A stretch of 34,255 nucleotides of DNA from an uncultured Alphaproteobacteria bacterium. Its GTDB lineage: Bacteria; Pseudomonadota; Alphaproteobacteria; CAAGCB01; CAG-977. The position numbers and the translations under genes are program-made. Of this stretch, positions 8,511 through 34,255 are shown piece after piece. Under the pieces are notes generated by a model. The model did no database searches. It saw only the letters and a list, made by a program, of their open reading frames with translations, and was not told the DNA's origin. Position 1 is the first letter of the stretch, and every line of letters begins with the position of its first letter. The DNA lies in contig CALXTY010000005.1 in assembly GCA_944391535.1 (NCBI GenBank), positions 1 through 34,255 on the forward strand, read 5' to 3'.

Positions 8511-8751
8511 AAGTAAAAGAGATTTTTTTTATCTTCTCCGCAAATATCTACCTCCTTTTTTCTGAAATTCCTTTTAACAAAAAAAACAAACAATTTATTA
8601 ATTGTCATAAGGCCTTCAAAAAACTCAAAAAAAAACAAAACCCTTTTTAAGGGTATAAATTAAAAAACAAAACACAAAAATATTGAAACAAAGATAATAA
8701 CTTTTTATTATTTTCAACAAGTTAATTGTTACATTTTTATGACAAACATAT

Positions 8752-8764
8752 CCCCCCCCCCCCC
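8752..8764. repeat. Homopolymer of 13 C (candidate phase-variation tract)
   Basis: Thirteen consecutive C bases in otherwise AT-rich DNA, 70 bases upstream of the ATG and 39 bases upstream of the TATAAT box of a secreted surface-type protein. Tracts of this length slip readily during replication and are a classic switch for surface genes. Here a length change would alter spacing upstream of the promoter. Confidence 0.75.
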
Positions 8765-17563: not shown

Positions 17564-19345
17564 ATGTTTGGGAAAATCACCGCGAAAATCAAGTCCATGA
17601 ATCTGGTGCGTAATTATTCGCGCATTTATCCTTACGTCAAACCGTATAGAGGCAGAGCCTTATTAGCCGTTTTAATCACAATTCCCATAGGATCTTTTGA
17701 CGCTTTGACGGCTTGGATTCTGAAACCGTATATGGATATTGTTCTGGTGGAAAAACAGGTTTCCGCCGCATCTTTTATGCCTTTACTGATTGTTGTTGCC
17801 AGCGCGATTCAAAGTTTTTGCAATTATGGCGCAGTGTATTTGAACACGTGGGTCGGTCAAAAAATCACCTGCGACTTAAAAAGGAAATTGTTTGAAAAAC
17901 TATTGCATCAGGATGCTGCCTATTTTGATCGGTCAACGTCCGGAGCCGTACAATTTCAATTCGGCACTGACGCGGAAATGGCTTGCAGCGGTCTGCTTTC
18001 GAATTTAAAAGTTTTTACAACACGCGTATTTTCATCAATTTCATTAATCGGCGTACTGATTTACAATTCGTGGCAATTAAGTATCGTGGCATTGCTTTTT
18101 ATGTTTGGCGCTTTATTGCCTTTATCCCGCGTACGCAAAAAAATCAAAGATCTGATGGGAAAACAAGTTATGACCGGCGGATTAATTTCAACGCATTATA
18201 TTGAAACATTCGGCGGCAACAGAGTGGTTTCTTCGTATAATTTGTACGATTACCAGATGAACAAATTCAACACCAGTCTGCAGTCTTTATTCAAAATCGC
18301 CATAAAAATGGTAAAAAAAACCGGACTTTTGTCTCCGATGATACACTTTATCATTTCTTTGGGAATAGCCGGCGTTATTTGGTTGGGCAGTTATTTGATC
18401 GTCCATCATCAAATTACCAGCGGGAACTTTGTTTCTTTTATTGCGGCGTTGTTAATGCTTTACACACCGATCAAAGGTATGGGAACCAGCGTGACAAACG
18501 TTCAGATGTCTTTTTTGGCCATGGAACGCGTTTTCGCTTTATTGGATTCAATTCCTTGCGTACGTAACAAAGAAAACGCGGTCAAATTGGAAAAGGTCGG
18601 ACAGTCAATAGAATATAGAAATGTCCATTTTTCTTATTTGCCGAACAAGCCTGTTTTAACGGATGTTTCTTTAAAGATTCCTGTTGGAAAAATGGTCGCT
18701 TTTGTCGGTAATTCGGGAGGAGGAAAAACAACTTTTGTTAATCTCTTGCCTCGTTTTTACGATGTAACGAAAGGGGATATTCTGATCGACGGAATTTCTT
18801 TAAGGGATTACGATTTAAACTCTTTAAGAGATCAGATCGCTGTTGTTTTCCAAGATAATTTTCTGTTTTCTGGAACGATACGGGACAATATTTTATTAGG
18901 TCTGACGGACTATACCGAAGAACAGTTGCACAATGCCGTCAAAAGCGCTTGTCTGGAAGAATTTATATCAGCATTGCCGAAAGGTCTTGATACGGATATC
19001 GGAGAACGGGGATCCTTACTTTCAGGGGGGCAAAAACAACGCATTGCCATCGCCCGCGCTTTTATGAAAAACGCACCGATTGTCATTTTAGACGAAGCAA
19101 CTTCGGCTTTGGACAACAAATCCGAAGCCATCGTTCAACAAGCAATCGACAATTTAATGAAAAACCGTACCGTATTAGTGATAGCTCATCGTCTTTCCAC
19201 GGTTCAAAATGCGGATATGATCGTTGTGATTAATGAAGGCAAAATCGTAGAAAAAGGCTCACATGACGAATTGTTGGCTTTAAACGGTGAATACGCGGCA
19301 TTATACAAAATGCAGTTTCGTAAAAAAGAAAAAACCGAAGAATAG
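17564..19345 (+). CDS. ABC exporter with fused membrane and ATPase domains (MsbA-like)
   Basis: A homodimeric type IV-fold ABC exporter, most like MsbA lipid A flippases; the substrate is inferred only. The 593 residues comprise an N-terminal six-helix membrane domain (about 25-325) and a C-terminal ATPase. The ATPase shows Walker A GNSGGGKTT near 384-392, the Q-loop VVFQDNFLF, signature [14 protein letters not shown], Walker B APIVILDEATSALD and the H-loop IAHRLSTV. The intracellular-loop motif FDRSTSGAVQFQFGTDAE is also present. It starts 45 bases after the tRNA, may share its transcription or have its own promoter in that gap, and no obvious terminator follows before the structured region at 19441. 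Confidence 0.92.
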   Translation: MFGKITAKIKSMNLVRNYSRIYPYVKPYRGRALLAVLITIPIGSFDALTAWILKPYMDIVLVEKQVSAASFMPLLIVVASAIQSFCNYGAVYLNTWVGQKITCDLKRKLFEKLLHQDAAYFDRSTSGAVQFQFGTDAEMACSGLLSNLKVFTTRVFSSISLIGVLIYNSWQLSIVALLFMFGALLPLSRVRKKIKDLMGKQVMTGGLISTHYIETFGGNRVVSSYNLYDYQMNKFNTSLQSLFKIAIKMVKKTGLLSPMIHFIISLGIAGVIWLGSYLIVHHQITSGNFVSFIAALLMLYTPIKGMGTSVTNVQMSFLAMERVFALLDSIPCVRNKENAVKLEKVGQSIEYRNVHFSYLPNKPVLTDVSLKIPVGKMVAFVGNSGGGKTTFVNLLPRFYDVTKGDILIDGISLRDYDLNSLRDQIAVVFQDNFLFSGTIRDNILLGLTDYTEEQLHNAVKSACLEEFISALPKGLDTDIGERGSLLSGGQKQRIAIARAFMKNAPIVILDEATSALDNKSEAIVQQAIDNLMKNRTVLVIAHRLSTVQNADMIVVINEGKIVEKGSHDELLALNGEYAALYKMQFRKKEKTEE

Positions 19346-19408: not shown

Positions 19409-19437
19409 TCGACTGAAATAAAAGTTTATGCTATCAT
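19409..19437 (+). promoter_or_regulatory. Candidate promoter for the structured leader
   Basis: TCGACT (19409-19414) and TATCAT (19432-19437) are spaced by 17 bases, placing a transcript start about 19444, just where dense secondary structure begins. Each box has two mismatches to consensus, so this is only suggestive. Confidence 0.4.
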
Positions 19438-19440
19438 CAG

Positions 19441-19715
19441 TGTATGTTTCGGTATTTGTATCGAAATACAGTACCTTTGCGGGTACGGAGCCGTCAGAAG
19501 CTCTCGTTGCATTACACGGTGACGATATAGCACCGTAAACCTTTGCATACTTGCTATGCAGGGTATATATCCCCGATTTCTTTTAAGGGTCGGGGAGCTT
19601 TGACGTATGTTCAGAAGTTATTCCTGTGCTCTGGAATGCTTTAAAGGTCAAAGGATCATTTTGTAATGCATGATTTCTGAACTCTCCGACCGCTTCTTAG
19701 CGGTCTTGTTTTTTC
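19441..19715 (+). ncRNA. Candidate structured RNA or cis-regulatory leader ending in a terminator
   Basis: About 275 bases without a reading frame but packed with hairpins: TGTA..TTTCG/CGAAATACA (19441-19470), GTACC/GGTAC (19471-19486), GGAGC/GCTCT (19487-19504), ACGGTG/CACCGT (19516-19536), a bulged ten-pair stem ACCTTTGCATA/TATGCAGGGT (19539-19564), TCCCCGA/TCGGGGA (19570-19596), and an outer stem TCAGAA/TTCTGA (19611-19680) enclosing ATTCC/GGAAT and ATCAT/ATGAT. It ends in an intrinsic terminator. The next gene's ribosome-binding site starts five bases beyond the T run, so it could be a riboswitch-like attenuator of that gene or an independent small RNA. It does not match tRNA, tmRNA or RNase P hallmarks. 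A non-coding remnant of an IS200/IS605-type element, which also carry hairpins, is an alternative. Confidence 0.5.
19688..19715 (+). terminator. Intrinsic terminator inside the leader of the large cysteine-rich gene
   Basis: Seven-base stem GACCGCT/AGCGGTC (19688-19694 with 19699-19705), loop TCTT, then TTGTTTTTT. It stands upstream, not downstream, of a gene with an excellent ribosome-binding site (AAGGAGG at 19720-19726), the layout of an attenuator. Confidence 0.8.
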
Positions 19716-19731
19716 TGTTAAGGAGGAAATC

Positions 19732-21243
19732 ATGATAAAATTTATGTTTCTTATATTCTGTTTCTTCGTCCCGAACATATCAAACGCTTTAAGTTTCGGG
19801 GACTTTAGTCAGGAAACAATCACTCTTGCCAAAGCTGTTAAATTAGGACGCGGTAAAAGCAATCTTTATTCCGTGTCAAATTTAAAAACAGAAGGCGCAA
19901 AAGCCAAAATTCTTTGTAAAGAAACCCCTTGTCCTGCGGGACAATATTTCAGCCAAGATTCCTGTTCTTGTTCCCCTTGTCCAAAAGGTCAGGATTGCGG
20001 TTGTTTTGCCACTTATGGTAACAGCCTTTTTGGTAGCCCTGTCGTATCCAACGGATACGGCAGTTGCGGCTGCCCTTCGGGAACAACCCTGACGGCTCAA
20101 CCGGGGAACCGTGCCGATAACACCGCCTGTAAATCCATTCCTTGCGAAGAAGGAGAAGATTGCGGTTGCAAAAACCGTTACGGATCCGATTATGTCGCCG
20201 ACGGTAAAGGCGGTTGTAAATACGACGGTATTTGTCCGCTGGGGCAATATTATTCCGCTTTTGGCTCCGGTTGCATCGCCTGTCCGGCCAATGCGACTTG
20301 CACAGGAAAATCTTGGAACATCATTTTTTCTGAAGCAAATTCTTCTTGCCATTGGAACGATTATACCTGTAACGCTCCGGGATTTGAATGCAAACCGGGT
20401 TACAGAATAACTTCAGGTACTGCTTGTATGACTTGTTCAACGCAATATGGCAAGGGTTGCAAGGCTTGTAATATGACCCAATGCCTGTCTTGCGAAGACG
20501 GCTATGTCTTTGATGCCGGTTCTGGCAAATGTACGGATCATTGTCCCGCGGGGCAATACATCAACGGCAATATGTGTTCAAACTGCCCCAAAGGAGAGGA
20601 TTGCGGGTGTAAAGAAACCTATGCTTCATCAATGTCCGTATCCAACGGCAGCGGATCTTGCGGTTGTCAGGAAAATTTCTATTTCACGCCGGCTCCGGGA
20701 AATAAAGCGGATTATACGGCTTGCAAAGGCGTTCCTTGTGCCGAAGGTGAAGATTGCGGTTGCGTCAATCGTTACGGATCCGATTATGTCGCCGATGGCA
20801 AAGGCGGTTGTAAAGAGCTGATTTGTCCGGCGGGACAAACCATTTACAACGGCAAATGCATTAACTGTCCGTCCGGAGAAGACTGCGGTTGTAATGACAC
20901 CTACGGTTCGCCGTCCGTATCAAACGGCAGCGGATCCTGCGGTTGTCCGGCAGGAATGTCTTTAACGCCGGCTCCCGGTAACAGACTTAACACGACAACC
21001 TGCCAGACAACGCCTTGTGCCAAAGGAGAAGACTGCGGTTGCGTCAATTACAAACTCGGATACGTTGCAAACGGTAAAGGCGGTTGTGAACAAAAAACCT
21101 GTTCCGCCGGTAACTATCTTTCCGGCGCGCAATGTTTGCCTTGTTCCGCAGGATCGGATTGCGGTTGTTTCGCAAAAGAACCCTACCATGGTAAATCATG
21201 GGCTTCAGACGGAACAGGCTCTTGTGATATCGTAATGAAGTAA
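19732..21243 (+). CDS. Large cysteine-rich repeat secreted protein with AKAVKLGRG motif
   Basis: Function unknown; 503 residues. AAGGAGG lies five bases before the ATG. A signal peptide covers about residues 1-19 (NISNA-LSFG), then LAKAVKLGRGKSN with AKAVKLGRG at 33-41. The remainder holds 58 cysteines, nearly 12 percent. Three long repeat units (about 83-163, 285-361, 379-452) follow the plan CPxGEDCGC, TYG, VSNGSGSCGCP, LTPAPGN, PCxxGEDCGC, NRYGSDYVADGKGGC; the first unit is the most diverged and a partial fourth begins near 471. Between units 1 and 2 lies a different segment (168-285) with GF-receptor-like CxxC motifs (CKACNMTQCLSCEDGYVF) like those of the small cysteine-rich genes at 8835-9938. 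Probably an exported, disulfide-stabilised rod displayed at the surface. No membrane anchor or sorting signal is visible at the C-terminus. Confidence 0.8.
   Translation: MIKFMFLIFCFFVPNISNALSFGDFSQETITLAKAVKLGRGKSNLYSVSNLKTEGAKAKILCKETPCPAGQYFSQDSCSCSPCPKGQDCGCFATYGNSLFGSPVVSNGYGSCGCPSGTTLTAQPGNRADNTACKSIPCEEGEDCGCKNRYGSDYVADGKGGCKYDGICPLGQYYSAFGSGCIACPANATCTGKSWNIIFSEANSSCHWNDYTCNAPGFECKPGYRITSGTACMTCSTQYGKGCKACNMTQCLSCEDGYVFDAGSGKCTDHCPAGQYINGNMCSNCPKGEDCGCKETYASSMSVSNGSGSCGCQENFYFTPAPGNKADYTACKGVPCAEGEDCGCVNRYGSDYVADGKGGCKELICPAGQTIYNGKCINCPSGEDCGCNDTYGSPSVSNGSGSCGCPAGMSLTPAPGNRLNTTTCQTTPCAKGEDCGCVNYKLGYVANGKGGCEQKTCSAGNYLSGAQCLPCSAGSDCGCFAKEPYHGKSWASDGTGSCDIVMK
20176..20795 (+). repeat. 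In-frame direct DNA repeats within the large cysteine-rich gene
   Basis: A 26-base block is identical at 20176-20201 and 20770-20795, 594 bases (198 codons) apart, inside longer imperfect repeats. Related blocks around SNGSGSCGC recur near 20638 and 20919. Recombination between copies would delete or duplicate whole units without breaking the frame. Confidence 0.8.
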
Positions 21244-27540: not shown

Positions 27541-30500
27541 TTAGAAAGAATATCTGAACATTGCCGTTAAGGAATGTGACATATAATCAGGTCTCCATTC
27601 CAAATTATATCCGGCCGAAATATCAACATGATCACCCAACAGGTATGCGATAGAAGCTCCTAATTCAACACCCAACGGATCGAAATCGTCCCCGACGACG
27701 GTGTAAGAACTGCCGTTTGGCAGGTTCACGACGGCATCTTCTCCGGAAGCGGAAAAATCATACGTCAACGCGGCGGAAAGCTCGCTGTGCCACAACGAAT
27801 TATTCGTTTTTGCGAAATCACGGCTGAAACGCCCTTCGGCGACAAAGGTCAAGGCTGATGTCGAAACACTCGAGATATCTTGTCCGACTTCGTCTTTATG
27901 GGCGTCACGTCCGGCGGAAACATAACGCAATCCGACGGCAGGCGTCCATGTTTTCAAGTCCTTACCGAACATAATCGACGCTCCGAAAGATGATCCGTCA
28001 TAACTGTCTGACAATGTCAAACCGGATAAGTCTTTCGTTTCATCATAAGTCATGGAAGTCATATTCAAAACAGAACTGACAAACCAATCGGAAGGTTTAT
28101 ACATTCCGTACAAGAAGAAAGAATCGCCCGAAATATCGGTAGAGCGTTGCAAACTGTCTAAAGTTGTCGTTGTTGATGCATACCCGATCCCTAAAGCGAA
28201 AACATCAAACAGTTGCATATCGGCACCGATAGCTATTCCCGTTGTATCACCGGAAAAGCCTTCTGGCTTGCTGACAGACATATAATCCGCCGTGTTATAA
28301 AAAGCTTGTGCCCATAAACCGAAATTTTTCGGTTGGGAATAAGAAGTTCTTCTTTTTGCCCATCTTTTGCGTTCGGCCGTCGTTTCAACCGCTTCCTGAC
28401 TGTCGGGATCGACACGACGACGATAAGCGGGACGCGGTCTGGGCGTCGGCTGATCGTCTTGATCATAGTATCCTGCGCGGCGATAGTAATCTTGAGCACG
28501 CATGAATCTGGAATTATACGGCGAACCGCCCGAACGTCCGTACATTTGTTGTATTTCTCGATACGTTCTTGAAGAACTGCCCATATTTCCCATCAAACCG
28601 TTCAATCTTGAAGAAACCGTATTTGTTACCTTGGAATGCAAAGCGATCGGTTGACGTGTCATGGCTCCGGTCACATCAGGTGAAACAGCCGTCAAAGCCT
28701 TTAAGTAATCGGAATGCCCCCCTTTTTTCTGAGACAAAGCATCTAAATGTTCGGCGACTTCAAACGCTTTTGTGCCGTAATCGAACAATTCTCCGTCCAA
28801 GAAAGCGGTCGCCGTATTGACTTGATTTTGATTTCCCGCTTCTTCCTGTGCAACCTGACCGCCCGTAGAAGTTTGTGTTAAGCGATAGCAGATACCGGTT
28901 CCTGAAGAACACGTTTCTTCTTTTAAATCATAACGATTGTTTTCAAAAACAAAGAACCCTGTTTTGCTTCCTTCCACCAACTGAAAGACGGATCCGCTTT
29001 CCGCCGTTTGCAAACCGTAATCAATCGTTATATCCAACTTGACATTATTGCCGATATTTAAAGTTCCTCCGTTAAAGACCAACTTTCCATATCCGGTCGC
29101 ATTGACATTTCCCATCTCGTCAGTGGCTTCGCGGGAAATGCGCATCATAAAGTTGGAATTATCGTTAAAAGAAAAGTTTCCGACATTAAACGTCAATGTA
29201 TTGACGTCGATATCAAGCTTGCCGCCGCTGGCGATGCTGCCATTACCCAAAGTGGCATTCTTTTCAAAAATCGCGGTTCCGGCGCCGATGTTTAAGGCTC
29301 CCAAGTTCGCCGTATCTTTAAAGTAAACAGCTCCTTTATCCGAAATCGTTATGGATTTAACGTCCGCCACCTGATCAAATTCTGCAAATCCGTCCGTAAT
29401 CCAAACTTCATCAATAAAAGACTGACGATAAAATCTTGCATAAGCGGAATTAAGAATCAAAGACTTAAAATTCGTATCCGACAAAAACGTCAAAGATCCG
29501 TTTCCGGCACTGATCGTTCCTTTATATTCATTCGCTTTGTCAAATGTCGCGCTGGCTTGCCCTTCCAATTGCAGACGAGACGTTGCGGCACCGGTCAACT
29601 TGCCGATTCCCGAAAAATCGGATCCGATAACAACCGTCACGTTATCTTCGATATTAATCGTTCCTTCGACCGAAGAATATGTCAAAGAACCGATCTTGGA
29701 ATCTCCGATAAAGTTCAAGACACCCGTTCCGATCGTTGCGGCGGCCAAATTTTTATTTCCCGTGGAAAACGCGACATTCCCGGATCCGGCGACAAAAGAA
29801 CCTTCTCCGTAAACAATTCCGTTTGTTCCGCTTTGCGTCATGGAATTGACATTCATCGTCATGCCGGAAATCAGATTGACTTCTCCGCCGTTGCTGAACG
29901 CCAAGGTTCCGATGTTAATATTGTTATAGAATTCGGCCGTTCCGCCGTTAGAAACCATTAATGTGCCGAGATTGTCAATCGGAGCTTTAAACGAAGACCC
30001 TTGACCGGTTAAATTTAATGTTCCGTTTCCGGTAATTTTATTCACTCCGTCGGTGACAATCGTCCCGACCGTTAAAATGTTATTATCGGCGATATCAAGC
30101 ACACCGCCCGTATTATCAGCAAATCCTATTGCGCCGATTGCAGCATTTGTTTGAATATAGGCCGTTCCCGAACCGATTTTTATTGTGCCGTCAAAAGCCG
30201 TATTCATTGCAAAGACACCGGACGAGCTTCCATCAAGAAACAACGTTCCGGTTCCTGTTAAAACATCATTTGATTTCAGAGTTATATTTTTATTTACCGT
30301 CAATATTGTGCCGTCATTAATCCCTAAAGTGCCTCCGTTTTCATCAAATATGATTTCAAACAGCTTTGTATTATCGGTGATATTTAATGTTCCGTTGACG
30401 TATGTCGCATTATTAACGCTCCCTCCGGCAAAATTCAGAGTTGTCCCATCCGCGATTGTTACGGAATTTGAGATTGTCGAAGCCGATGTTGTCGTCGACA

Positions 30501-33500
30501 CTCCCCCAGAGGTAGACAAATTATTCAAATTATCCAGAATACTGTTTACGGTCACGCCCGTTAAATCAAGTGTTCCGTCTCCGGTAATAACAGAAGAAGC
30601 GTCCTTTCCTAATGTACTATTTTTCACCGAGAGTTCTGCGCCGGAAGCAATAACCACTTTTGCATTATCATTCATCACCAAACCGGCTCCGCCTGAACCG
30701 ACTTGAGTTGAGACATTAATATGCGCCGTAGCGCCATTTTCCAAATTTAAATTATCCAATGCGTCCAGACCGGCATTAAAATTCCCAATTCCGGCTGTTC
30801 CTGATAATATCAATTTAGATCCCTTAATTGCATTGCCTGCATTCACTGTGATATTGCCGCTGACTGTTAAATTTTGCGACAAATTTAAAACACCTTCGGT
30901 ATCCGAATTAAAACTAATGTTTCCAATATTTGCCGAACCGACATTAACCGTACCCGAGCCGACTATCAGATTTGCCAACAATTGTCCCGACGCATTTTTA
31001 AACGTCCCGTTATTCACAAATAGCGTTCCCGTTCCGTAAACATTGGTATTTTCGTTACCGAAAGTGTTTTGAACGACTAGAATACCGTTATTCACGACAA
31101 CATTGGCTCCGCCGCTATTGACGGTGAAGGTATTCAGATTGGATTGTCCCGCATAATTAAAAGAGATCGTACCGGCGGATTTTCCTAAAATCAACTCATT
31201 CAGATTAACCTGTCCTGCGAAAACGGAACCGTCTCCGTTGAGCAGATTCAAAGTTCCCTCTCCTTGAACGATATTACCGGCATTAGTTGTAATCCGACAA
31301 TTATCATTTCTGGAACAGCCTCCGTTTTCATCGCTGAGCTGTAGTGCGGCTCCTGTATTAATTTGCAATATTCCGCCCTGAGACGAACTGAATTGAACAC
31401 TCCCCAATGTCGTATCAGCGGTAATCGTCGCAGTTCCCGTACCGATTTTCAATCCTCCCAGATATTTAATACTGCCCTGATTGCCGCCACCGAAGCTAAT
31501 ACTTGTATCATTCAGTAATTCCAACGTACCGATTCCGGAAATGGAATTTCCCTCTCCGGTAATACCGCTGTCTTCACTGGGAGACTGTTTTAAAGCCAAA
31601 ACGACATCTTCTCCGTTCAACAAGACCGTTCCATGATCCAGTGATAAAGAATCTAATGTCAAAGATCCTTTGTTTAAGTTCACAGTTCCATAAACGACTT
31701 CCATTGTTCCGATTGCGTCGGGATACCCGGTCGATCCGTTAAAATTAGCGACAGCCTCATCAGAACTTTGCCCGACGATTTGCAGATTTTGTAAATTCGT
31801 AATACGTCCTTCGAACAATGCCGAATCCGTTATTTTGACGGATCCGGATCCGGTTAATGTCGCCCATTGTTCGACAGAACCGTTCATAATTAAATTTTCG
31901 ACATTCAATGTCCCGTCAACAGTTAAAGTCGATCCTTTATTGGCCGTCAATGTTTCAAAATTCGAAACCGCTCCGGCATCCACATTCAAATTACCGGTAG
32001 CTGCCGTTTGATCTCCCAGAACGCCGATTCCGACATTCAAGATACCGCTTTTAACCGAAGCGGATCCTTGTGTCATTTTTAATGATCCGAACGAAGTTTC
32101 AGCCGCAGAAAAAACAACTTGAGCTCCGTTTTCAACGTTCACCGTCAAATTGGGACTTTCGAAATGCTCCGTTGCGCCTTCCTGATCAGCGAAACTCAAC
32201 GTCATACCGTCTTTAATCGTCAACACCCCGTCGGTGGCGTTTGGAACGACAGCCGGATCAGTAATGATTTGCGAGGTATTCCATATTGTCGTCGAATTTG
32301 TCAACGTCAATGGCGTTTGATCCGTCAAAAAAACAACTCGCCCATTATCAAAGTTCAAGTTATTAACGACCAATTCCCTGTTCAAATTCAACGTTGAATT
32401 TCCCAGATTAACCGTATCCACAACCAGTCGCGCATTTATATTAATCGTGCCGACATTTTCACCGGCATTGCCTGAAGCACCGTTGAGAACAGATAAAGAA
32501 AGATCGTTTGTATCATTGCCTTTAATAAAGGTAACTTCTCCGCGTCCCACCGAAATGGTTCCGAAACCCGTTAAAGTGCCAACTGTAGCGCTGGCTGTTT
32601 CCGATAATTTCAACTCACCGGATCCGGAAAGGTTACCATTCATCATAAGATTATTGGTAATGGACAAGACGCCGGAAATAACCAAAGAAGCATTGGCTCC
32701 GTCCATATTATACGCATGAACCGTTACGGGCGCATTAATATTCAGAGTTCCGCCCGTTTGTTTCAGAATACCATCCGTCCAGTTGATAGTTGAAGCGATG
32801 GAAAAAGAATCAAACTGCAAATTCAATGTTCCCTGGCCGTCAATTGAAAATGTGGAAGACGGCGCTTGCATTGTTCCGGATTTAGCACTCAAAGTTAATG
32901 TTTTTCCTTGAGCAATCGAGAATTGTCCCCCGATGATATTGATGTCGTTGCCTTCTCCCGACACAAGAGCATTACTATTTACGTTCCATTGTCCGCCGGA
33001 GATATTGATACTTCCGGTATTTTGCCCATACATCAAAATTTGAGAACGATCATCGGTAAAATTCAACACACCGCCGGAAACATTGATATTTCCTGATGAA
33101 CTGACACTGTACTCTTTTGTTTCTCCTTTACTGTCTTTTGAATAGAAAATCGACTGAGAATTTCCTTTACGGATATCGATCTGACCTTGCAAAATACCGC
33201 CACTAATTGAAATATCTCCATACAGTGTATTATTATAAGCCGTTTCTCCGTTAGATAAGACGACACTTCCTCCGCTTGGTAAAGAGCTCAGATAAGCCGA
33301 ATAATCCCAAAGGACTCCTCCATTAAAATTTATTGTTAAAGGAGCATTCGGGTCTTGTTGACCGATTAGAATACCACCTGCCGCATTTTGAAAAATCCCA
33401 TTTTGAAAAGTTCCCGTTGTTGCTCCGGCAGAAGATTCCCCTTCCACGCCATAGATCGCCCCACCATTCCCGGTCCATGTCCCGGACATTAAAGTATAGG

Positions 33501-34255
33501 TTCGATCGTCGACAAGCCCGTTTGAAAATATCCCTCCAAGATATGATAAGTATGTCTTATTGCTGATATTGATGTTTGCGGCTCTTTGCATATTCAAAGA
33601 ACCGTTCATTTTAAATCCCGAACCGAATGTAATACTGGCGCCGTCCAAAATATTTAAGTTGGCTAAATTAACCTCACCGTTGAAAACTCCGGAATTAGAT
33701 ACATTTATGGTGCCATTTTGAGAACCTGACGTGTTAATGGCATATGCCGTTATATCCGTCACATCCAATGTAGCTCCGTTATTTATATTCAGTTTATTGT
33801 TTAAGGAGGTTGCTTTAAAGGAATCCAGAACAACGTCATTTCCGGAACCGGTTACGACCACAGTTCCCCCCGTCGTTGACTGAAATATCACAGAACCGAT
33901 ATTTACATCCTGACTACCATACGACAGATTAACCGTTCCACTGCCAACAATTAAATGAGCTAATTTATTCCCGCCGGTCGAATCAATATAACCATTATCC
34001 AGCAACAAAGTTCCCGTCCCATAGATCTTAGCCACACTTGAAGATATCTTTGCCACAGACAACTGACCGTTATTAACGACCATTGTACCGTCATTTAAAA
34101 AAACATTATTAATTTTAGAAGACACGCCGGAAAATATGGCCGTTCCATTATTTGTTAAACTCATTTCAGACACGTACACATTTCCGCTTAACGTGCTTGT
34201 GCCTGTGCCAGTGATCGTTAAGGTTCCGACCTGACTTGACGAACTGTTGATATTG
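27541..34255 (-). CDS. Giant autotransporter adhesin-like protein (partial, N-terminus outside window)
   Basis: Type V secreted outer-membrane protein; at least 2237 residues are visible. The frame stays open through the window edge: upstream of the Met at 34179 the translation continues in the same style (LTITGTGTSTLSGNVYVSE), so that Met is internal and the signal peptide is outside. The passenger is a beta-helix of short repeats such as GTGTLNL, NNGTL and IGSGT, rich in Gly, Ser, Thr and Asn with almost no Cys (two pairs, SRNDNC and ETCSSGTGIC regions). A helical segment (TAFLDGELFDYGTKAFEVAEHLDAL) and a Tyr/Arg/Pro-rich linker (YYRRAGYYDQDDQPTPRPRP) lead to a 261-residue C-terminal autotransporter barrel starting NFGLWAQAFYN (27544-28326), ending RYSF with the terminal Phe expected of outer-membrane barrels. 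Likely adhesion or surface shielding. Confidence 0.93.
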   Translation of the reverse strand, partial: NINSSSSQVGTLTITGTGTSTLSGNVYVSEMSLTNNGTAIFSGVSSKINNVFLNDGTMVVNNGQLSVAKISSSVAKIYGTGTLLLDNGYIDSTGGNKLAHLIVGSGTVNLSYGSQDVNIGSVIFQSTTGGTVVVTGSGNDVVLDSFKATSLNNKLNINNGATLDVTDITAYAINTSGSQNGTINVSNSGVFNGEVNLANLNILDGASITFGSGFKMNGSLNMQRAANINISNKTYLSYLGGIFSNGLVDDRTYTLMSGTWTGNGGAIYGVEGESSAGATTGTFQNGIFQNAAGGILIGQQDPNAPLTINFNGGVLWDYSAYLSSLPSGGSVVLSNGETAYNNTLYGDISISGGILQGQIDIRKGNSQSIFYSKDSKGETKEYSVSSSGNINVSGGVLNFTDDRSQILMYGQNTGSINISGGQWNVNSNALVSGEGNDINIIGGQFSIAQGKTLTLSAKSGTMQAPSSTFSIDGQGTLNLQFDSFSIASTINWTDGILKQTGGTLNINAPVTVHAYNMDGANASLVISGVLSITNNLMMNGNLSGSGELKLSETASATVGTLTGFGTISVGRGEVTFIKGNDTNDLSLSVLNGASGNAGENVGTININARLVVDTVNLGNSTLNLNRELVVNNLNFDNGRVVFLTDQTPLTLTNSTTIWNTSQIITDPAVVPNATDGVLTIKDGMTLSFADQEGATEHFESPNLTVNVENGAQVVFSAAETSFGSLKMTQGSASVKSGILNVGIGVLGDQTAATGNLNVDAGAVSNFETLTANKGSTLTVDGTLNVENLIMNGSVEQWATLTGSGSVKITDSALFEGRITNLQNLQIVGQSSDEAVANFNGSTGYPDAIGTMEVVYGTVNLNKGSLTLDSLSLDHGTVLLNGEDVVLALKQSPSEDSGITGEGNSISGIGTLELLNDTSISFGGGNQGSIKYLGGLKIGTGTATITADTTLGSVQFSSSQGGILQINTGAALQLSDENGGCSRNDNCRITTNAGNIVQGEGTLNLLNGDGSVFAGQVNLNELILGKSAGTISFNYAGQSNLNTFTVNSGGANVVVNNGILVVQNTFGNENTNVYGTGTLFVNNGTFKNASGQLLANLIVGSGTVNVGSANIGNISFNSDTEGVLNLSQNLTVSGNITVNAGNAIKGSKLILSGTAGIGNFNAGLDALDNLNLENGATAHINVSTQVGSGGAGLVMNDNAKVVIASGAELSVKNSTLGKDASSVITGDGTLDLTGVTVNSILDNLNNLSTSGGVSTTTSASTISNSVTIADGTTLNFAGGSVNNATYVNGTLNITDNTKLFEIIFDENGGTLGINDGTILTVNKNITLKSNDVLTGTGTLFLDGSSSGVFAMNTAFDGTIKIGSGTAYIQTNAAIGAIGFADNTGGVLDIADNNILTVGTIVTDGVNKITGNGTLNLTGQGSSFKAPIDNLGTLMVSNGGTAEFYNNINIGTLAFSNGGEVNLISGMTMNVNSMTQSGTNGIVYGEGSFVAGSGNVAFSTGNKNLAAATIGTGVLNFIGDSKIGSLTYSSVEGTINIEDNVTVVIGSDFSGIGKLTGAATSRLQLEGQASATFDKANEYKGTISAGNGSLTFLSDTNFKSLILNSAYARFYRQSFIDEVWITDGFAEFDQVADVKSITISDKGAVYFKDTANLGALNIGAGTAIFEKNATLGNGSIASGGKLDIDVNTLTFNVGNFSFNDNSNFMMRISREATDEMGNVNATGYGKLVFNGGTLNIGNNVKLDITIDYGLQTAESGSVFQLVEGSKTGFFVFENNRYDLKEETCSSGTGICYRLTQTSTGGQVAQEEAGNQNQVNTATAFLDGELFDYGTKAFEVAEHLDALSQKKGGHSDYLKALTAVSPDVTGAMTRQPIALHSKVTNTVSSRLNGLMGNMGSSSRTYREIQQMYGRSGGSPYNSRFMRAQDYYRRAGYYDQDDQPTPRPRPAYRRRVDPDSQEAVETTAERKRWAKRRTSYSQPKNFGLWAQAFYNTADYMSVSKPEGFSGDTTGIAIGADMQLFDVFALGIGYASTTTTLDSLQRSTDISGDSFFLYGMYKPSDWFVSSVLNMTSMTYDETKDLSGLTLSDSYDGSSFGASIMFGKDLKTWTPAVGLRYVSAGRDAHKDEVGQDISSVSTSALTFVAEGRFSRDFAKTNNSLWHSELSAALTYDFSASGEDAVVNLPNGSSYTVVGDDFDPLGVELGASIAYLLGDHVDISAGYNLEWRPDYMSHSLTAMFRYSF

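Follow-up and report, generated by a model that had tools for sequence, protein, structure and literature searches.

A conserved RNA with two pseudoknots and alternative pairings, and its likely role as a cis-acting leader of accessory genes

The EAR, put and JUMPstart-RfaH systems are leader RNAs or DNA sites that stand before surface and conjugation operons and overcome termination, and the radC motif RNA (RF01754) is found in Proteobacteria ahead of genes whose products interact with DNA or belong to mobile elements. In Xanthomonas, sRNA-Xcc1 (RF02221) was cloned, mapped by RACE to a length of 88 nt and detected on Northern blots (PMC2996969), and it has been positioned upstream of symE in integron cassettes (2025, PMC12444791). 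Among the motifs of Weinberg 2010 is one named 'Rhizobiales-1', which has no Rfam accession. For the full-length RNA class reported below, the literature searched, whose coverage falls short of key subscription papers, contains no description, and an earlier one may exist.

The window analyzed here is the whole 34,255-nucleotide stretch of DNA from an uncultured alphaproteobacterium. Positions 19441-19731 are intergenic, with an ABC-transporter gene (17564-19345) on one side and a 503-aa Cys-rich ORF (19732-21243) on the other. The original prediction described dense RNA structure in this interval, and folding agrees: its energy is -104.8 kcal/mol, whereas dinucleotide shuffles give -73.7 +/- 4.5 (z = -6.88; none of 200 shuffles folds as well), and the hairpins H0, Ha, S1 and P2-P6 and the terminator are all present. 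The features of the window copy are as follows.

19409-19437, + strand: candidate sigma-70 promoter TCGACT-17-TATCAT with an extended -10 TG (pattern scan)
19445-19468, + strand: H0 hairpin, the transcript's first in the window's family (MFE fold; equivalents elsewhere in the family by eye)
19471-19486, + strand: Ha hairpin GTACC/GGTAC (covarying helix 1; 5 of 5 pairs changed on both sides)
19488-19503, + strand: S1 hairpin GAGC/GCTC (covarying helix 2; 99.4% paired; GGGG/CCCC in other lineages)
19494-19499, + strand: S1 loop, which makes pseudoknot S2 by pairing with S2b
19509-19516, + strand: P1b 5' strand GCATTACA (pairs with 19662-19669; permutation z 35)
19517-19563, + strand: P2 and P3 hairpins (MFE fold; P2 covaries, helix 4)
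19569-19578, + strand: P4 5' arm ATCCCCGATT (forms helix 5 with 19588-19597; 89% of cells paired; changes on both sides in 7 of 10 pairs)
19588-19597, + strand: P4 3' arm GGTCGGGGAG, alternative partner SW at 19682-19691 (96.6% paired, 6 of 10 changed on both sides; permutation z 14)
19598-19653, + strand: P5 hairpin with the conserved internal loop GTATGTTCAG / TAAAG (helices 6 and 7; 12 of 12 pairs changed on both sides)
19655-19674, + strand: P6 hairpin ATCA/TGAT (helix 8; 98.4% paired; every pair changed on both sides)
19662-19669, + strand: P1b 3' strand TGTAATGC, within the P6 hairpin loop (pseudoknot 2; pairs with 19509-19516)
19669-19678, + strand: CATGATTTCT, 10-bp complement of the ribosome-binding site and start codon at 19725-19734
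19675-19680, + strand: S2b strand TTCTGA, partner of the S1 loop 19494-19499 (pseudoknot 1; helix 3; permutation z 22)
19682-19691, + strand: SW strand CTCTCCGACC, partner of the P4 3' arm (putative antiterminator) or part of the terminator 5' arm (covariation, permutation)
19688-19715, + strand: intrinsic terminator and U-tract, stem 19688-19705 (pattern scan)
19720-19734, + strand: Shine-Dalgarno AAGGAGG (19720) and ATG (19732) (sequence)
19732-21243, + strand: secreted-looking Cys-rich protein of 503 aa, presumed controlled gene (ORF)

A terminator directly before a ribosome-binding site and a candidate promoter ending where the structure starts had likewise been anticipated, and both are found at these positions. 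By themselves, the promoter-like and terminator matches of the pattern scan barely exceed shuffle expectation; the leader is raised above chance by comparative evidence, because its helices covary across 96 distinct homologous rows. In most copies of the family, inspection by eye shows -10-like hexamers (TATTCT, TATCCT, TATAAT) at the equivalent site 5' of the first hairpin. Bearing on an amino-acid leader-peptide attenuator as an alternative, the window copy contains short uORFs, none with an evident Shine-Dalgarno sequence. The protein encoded downstream (11.7% Cys) gives zero Pfam matches, and the contig carries no evident mobile-element genes. Elsewhere in the window, a run of 13 C (8752-8764) lies inside the 5' part of a Cys-rich ORF whose first ATG is at 8739 and which has a likely Shine-Dalgarno and ATG also further downstream of the run; the gene could be phase-variable by way of this tract. 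At 27541-34254, an autotransporter-like ORF of very large size continues past the window end.

Compared with Rfam 15 at gathering and relaxed thresholds, the window copy returned chance matches only and none to a riboswitch family, RF01754 gave zero matches at any threshold applied, and at 18 homolog loci the RNA itself was without an Rfam match at gathering. A DNA search located three further copies in the same genome: one precedes a 192-aa lipoprotein-like protein, one an autotransporter and one an RgpF-like protein, and in every case a terminator closes the copy and a start codon comes next. Many more copies were located in related genomes. The sequences behind two covariance models, a core model (R1) and a full-length model (R2), were segmented by hand and stripped of variable loops; MAFFT added no gaps to them. 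R1 detected about 60 copies in 11 of the 12 genomes of the window's family; among 385 sampled alphaproteobacterial genomes, 30 matched R1 and 52 matched R2. The order-level search yielded nothing beyond the family result because the order comprises the same 12 genomes only. Of 398 sampled genomes, 8 that belong to non-alphaproteobacterial Pseudomonadota gave weaker matches, and 2 of 199 sampled Acidobacteria were positive with the query genome counted (about 1%).

A 25-base core pattern matched more than 118 contigs of a genome collection, from taxa including Rhizobium, Agrobacterium, Shinella, Methylobacterium, Sphingomonas-type bacteria, Paracoccus and several Acidobacteria, and 7 viral contigs (IMG/VR); the viral contig L217 has no full-model match and looks like a chance pattern match. 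Distant blastn hits fell in 384 plasmid records, chiefly of Agrobacterium and Rhizobium. An extreme expansion to 28 copies was found in a 0.8-Mb MAG labelled Rickettsiales (G409; L101, L104, L188 and L306-L322 among them). A MAG labelled Gastranaerophilales also carries a copy (L172 / L323), on a contig that may be mis-binned alphaproteobacterial DNA. Tandem pairs exist as well: on an Agrobacterium plasmid (L222) each copy precedes its own regulator gene, and at L199 the copies lie about 120 nt apart.

For the analysis of covariation, the 96 distinct rows were aligned to R2. In the consensus structure 93.3% of cells are paired and 43 of 47 pairs changed on both sides, with a covariation score of 0.618 versus 0.210 for shuffles and 0.05-0.11 with partners slid; sliding partners by 1-3 columns leaves just 39-53% of cells paired. 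These alignments were fitted to hand-segmented, loop-trimmed models, which favours the nested helices. S2 is absent from the pairings of the alignment model, and it is 92.4% paired with 5 of 6 pairs changed on both sides. Because the position of P1b varies, this helix was assessed in each sequence separately: the mean length of the longest Watson-Crick run joining the post-S1 linker to the P6 loop is 6.5, versus 3.0 +/- 0.1 in permutations (z = 35), and for S2 the mean longest run is 5.9 versus 3.2 permuted (z = 22), the z-values of this and the other permutation tests being inflated by sequence relatedness. Lineages differ in their compensating changes (GGGGTG/CACCCC, GCTGGGGA/TCCCCAGT, CGGGTG/CACCCG), and P3 is seemingly missing from Rhizobium-type copies. 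At the level of sequence comparison, the RNA is conserved, holds two pseudoknots and alternative covarying pairings, and sits before genes. The covarying homologs for which the original prediction had proposed a search were obtained; of the nested stems that it drew, the hairpins are present, and in the consensus of the family two helices turn out to be pseudoknots. These took the place of the nested, multibranch interpretation of the MFE fold, and an outer P0 stem (CGGAG/CUCCG) was put aside because S1 is 99.4% paired and covarying.

The P4 3' arm is complementary both to the P4 5' arm, often via G-U, and to SW. With P4 replaced by the pairing of its 3' arm with SW, 95.0% of cells are paired, 42 of 47 pairs changed on both sides and the score is 0.589 versus 0.190. 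This alternative pairing exceeds permutation with G-U allowed (z = 14) and with Watson-Crick pairs only among the 40 members whose P4 3' arm departs from the consensus (z = 10.5). Since SW (19682-19691) overlaps the terminator stem (19688-19705), the pairing is predicted to act as an antiterminator. Counting against the leader reading proposed below, the terminator state is preferred by about 15 kcal/mol in nested energy, although pseudoknot energy is left out.

In 205 usable homologs, the longest nearby ORF lies on the same strand in 157 and on the opposite strand in 48, some of the latter being cases of a short downstream gene or of a GC-rich genome. An attenuating leader or riboswitch was among the options originally offered, and it gains from these comparisons: homologs mostly stand in the same orientation before start codons, and the covarying antiterminator pairing excludes the terminator. 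A U-tract follows SW within 60 nt in 72 of the 210 homologs with a called gene, and these RNAs are lower in G+C (0.48 vs 0.58). Among the 138 copies without a U-tract, 90 carry another type of hairpin, GCGGGGGCGCACCGC, within 120 nt after SW, as against 4 of the 72 in the U-tract class; its loop resembles that of Ha. We infer that the two types are two expression platforms attached to one sensor domain.

A further pairing involves translation. In the window, 19669-19678 could pair over 10 bp with 19725-19734, a segment that takes in the ATG and some of the Shine-Dalgarno sequence. When members of the terminator class are compared, the 3' domain fits its own ribosome-binding region above those of other members (z = 5.3; coding-region control z = -1.0), and the fit is weaker in the class lacking a U-tract (z = 3.1; control z = -0.2). 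Absolute counts are biased, since the Shine-Dalgarno score entered into the calling of gene starts; the permutation, which compares the same called regions, is less affected. A universal pairing of SW with the Shine-Dalgarno sequence is unsupported (mean run of 5.3 in copies without a U-tract vs 4.3 shuffled; z = 3.1).

The region is likely a cis-acting switch leader (5' UTR) with its own promoter, two pseudoknots and a P4/SW switch. In the mechanism that we propose, a 5' domain (Ha, S1, P1b strand, P2/P3, P4) and a 3' domain (P5, P6, S2b, SW) would be locked together via the pseudoknots, one joining the S1 loop to S2b and the other joining P1b to the P6 loop, and the P4 3' arm GGTCGGGGAG would choose between the P4 5' arm and SW. 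With P4 formed, SW would be free, the terminator at 19688-19715 would form and transcription would end before the gene; if the P4 3' arm takes SW, the terminator would be blocked and RNA polymerase would read into the Cys-rich gene. Translation, too, may be controlled, through the 10-bp complementarity between 19669-19678 and the start codon with its ribosome-binding site. Both the use of the P4/SW pairings as a regulatory switch and the direction of that switch are proposed here from sequence.

The genes that follow the leader were surveyed with Pfam and NCBIfam for 149 proteins, and with PADLOC for 76 of these. They encode HTH regulators, EcoRI-type methylases, type IIG and other restriction enzymes, DISARM-like proteins, TraM, glycosyltransferases, outer-membrane proteins, PEGA lipoproteins, GGDEF proteins and, by eye, pilin-like proteins. 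Across the 149, secreted, surface, defence and mobile-element functions recur and a single shared pathway was not found. TraM is a quorum-sensing antiactivator of conjugative plasmids. Copies at L294, L131, L144 and L210 lie directly 5' of TraM-like proteins, these four being recognized by eye with Pfam TraM present in the set, and seven copies on Agrobacterium vitis chromosomes (L286-L292) precede small, mostly paralogous proteins starting with MADYNVWADLFDTWQ or similar.

The window's own genome holds a second group, type B, detected by a third model (R3) in 20 copies there and in 0-19 copies in family relatives; its P4 3' arm is GGGCGGATGT and its SW ACATCCGCCC. The total for this genome is therefore about 24 (4 + 20), most of them before secreted, often Cys-rich, proteins; whether homologous copies stand before other Cys-rich genes had been put forward as a check. 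A start codon follows in 17 of the 17 type B copies inspected, and where readable most of the proteins are secreted-looking and most of those Cys-rich (7-14% Cys); the Cys-poor exceptions follow the leaders L345, L350, L356 and L360. The window protein has weak local similarity to some type B proteins, with a best E of 2e-5 from a small comparison in which low complexity was unmasked. Near-identical type B copies with a shared signal-peptide region downstream suggest leader-plus-gene duplication. Type B leaders of this genome (L344-L360, G003) often adjoin contig ends, before paralogous genes, and the set is probably a duplicated leader-plus-gene family that breaks assembly.

The original prediction recognised no known RNA class. 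The window copy is indeed without an Rfam match, including to RF02221 even at E <= 10, and its 3' half is distantly related to that family. The RF02221 gathering score of 53 is not reached by the window copy, and coincident relatives score about 20-40 bits; in the members L302 (24.5 bits) and L299 (31.2 bits) the match extends across the full model. A genome search with RF02221 gave sub-threshold matches at about 20 loci at the same position and strand as R1/R2 matches. Weak RF02221 matches occurred also in 2 of 14 control genomes, so that a single weak match means little and it is the coincidence that constitutes evidence. The Rfam model, of 87 nt, covers only the 3' half of the leader and begins at about the P4 3' arm. 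In the L299 alignment, the closing helix of sRNA-Xcc1, of about 9 bp, corresponds to the pairing of the P4 3' arm with SW, and its inner hairpins to P5 and P6; the window leader fits this layout, with its covarying helix of P4 3' arm and SW around the two hairpins.

At 6 of the 7 above-cut-off RF02221 loci that were read, a hairpin lies upstream, its loop region matching S2b across 9-11 bases, the sole exception being L385, and across 15 RF02221-like loci the match between upstream loop and S2b exceeds permutation (z = 6.0). By eye, several of their ribosome-binding regions repeat the P1b strand (CAACAAG, ATCTAAG, TTACAGG), so the P6 loop could pair with either. The sub-threshold coincidences and the matching pseudoknotted 5' half at most above-threshold loci read indicate that RF02221 is probably the 3' domain of a larger leader, and the two would then belong to one class.

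As in riboswitches, a complex covarying fold lies in the 5' UTR and includes a predicted, mutually exclusive terminator/ribosome-binding-site pairing; downstream genes of one pathway, usual though not obligatory for riboswitches, are lacking, which would be unusual for a metabolite riboswitch. There is about an even chance that the RNA is an orphan riboswitch class whose double-pseudoknot sensor governs accessory genes, its 3' domain alone having been annotated as RF02221. We are equally divided over the proposed range of such a class, namely Alphaproteobacteria, other Pseudomonadota and Acidobacteria, with genes including those for TraM, defence, HTH and surface or secreted proteins.

A protein-binding site in place of a ligand-binding riboswitch, either a processive antitermination element that is loaded onto RNA polymerase or the target of an RNA-binding regulator, is a possible but rather doubtful trigger, and one compatible with a cis-leader. 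The downstream genes, with their glycosyltransferases, pilins, surface, conjugation and defence functions, resemble RfaH/LoaP-type targets, and the internal loop GTATGTYCAG / TAAAG is strongly conserved; however, the local covarying alternative pairing at the terminator would suffice for control with no need of processivity, and many of the genes downstream are short. It is unlikely that the region is instead an independent trans-acting sRNA that ends at the terminator, like sRNA-Xcc1, with the gene a mere neighbour. The terminator would supply a natural 3' end, and the discrete 88-nt RNA known for the distant relative sRNA-Xcc1 (PMC2996969) fits an independent or a processed RNA. Yet the terminator lies 15 nt from the ribosome-binding site in a placement that recurs in many genomes before diverse genes, copies without a U-tract likewise precede genes, SW and neighbouring strands fit their own ribosome-binding region beyond expectation, and the 88-nt species could be a processed 3' fragment, given where the RF02221 model begins. 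The independent small RNA of the original prediction may, given that discrete RNA, exist as an additional product. Its other suggestion, a dispersed repeat or mobile-element remnant with no role in gene control, is very improbable: copy numbers per genome are high (the 28 of the Rickettsiales-labelled MAG), and copies occur on plasmids and viral contigs and, in several cases, at contig ends, but compensatory changes keep the structure as sequence diverges, orientation and placement before start codons are consistent, no terminal repeats or element ends were noticed, and the type B copies with their shared downstream signal-peptide region point to leader-plus-gene duplication.

Read as a cis-acting switch leader, this RNA is present in a sizeable minority of alphaproteobacterial genomes without an Rfam entry of its own. 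If this reading is true, surface genes and horizontally acquired genes would share one common RNA signal for their expression, and the reading of sRNA-Xcc1, now discussed as trans-acting, virulence-linked and even vesicle-exported, would change. The Agrobacterium and Rhizobium copies make the proposal testable in tractable strains.

With transcription-attenuating riboswitches the window leader shares its site in the 5' UTR, a complex conserved fold and an exclusive antiterminator/terminator or anti-ribosome-binding-site strand; unlike theirs, its downstream genes are diverse accessory genes of no one pathway. It has no Rfam match to the EAR, put or JUMPstart-RfaH elements, and its terminator, a local one, shares bases with the covarying switch strand. 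In Xanthomonas, sRNA-Xcc1 is borne by integrons, transposons and plasmids; relatives of the leader are found on plasmid records and IMG/VR contigs, and the contig of the window copy shows no evident mobile-element genes. sRNA-Xcc1 was published as a trans-acting sRNA, whereas we read the window RNA as a leader with a switch.
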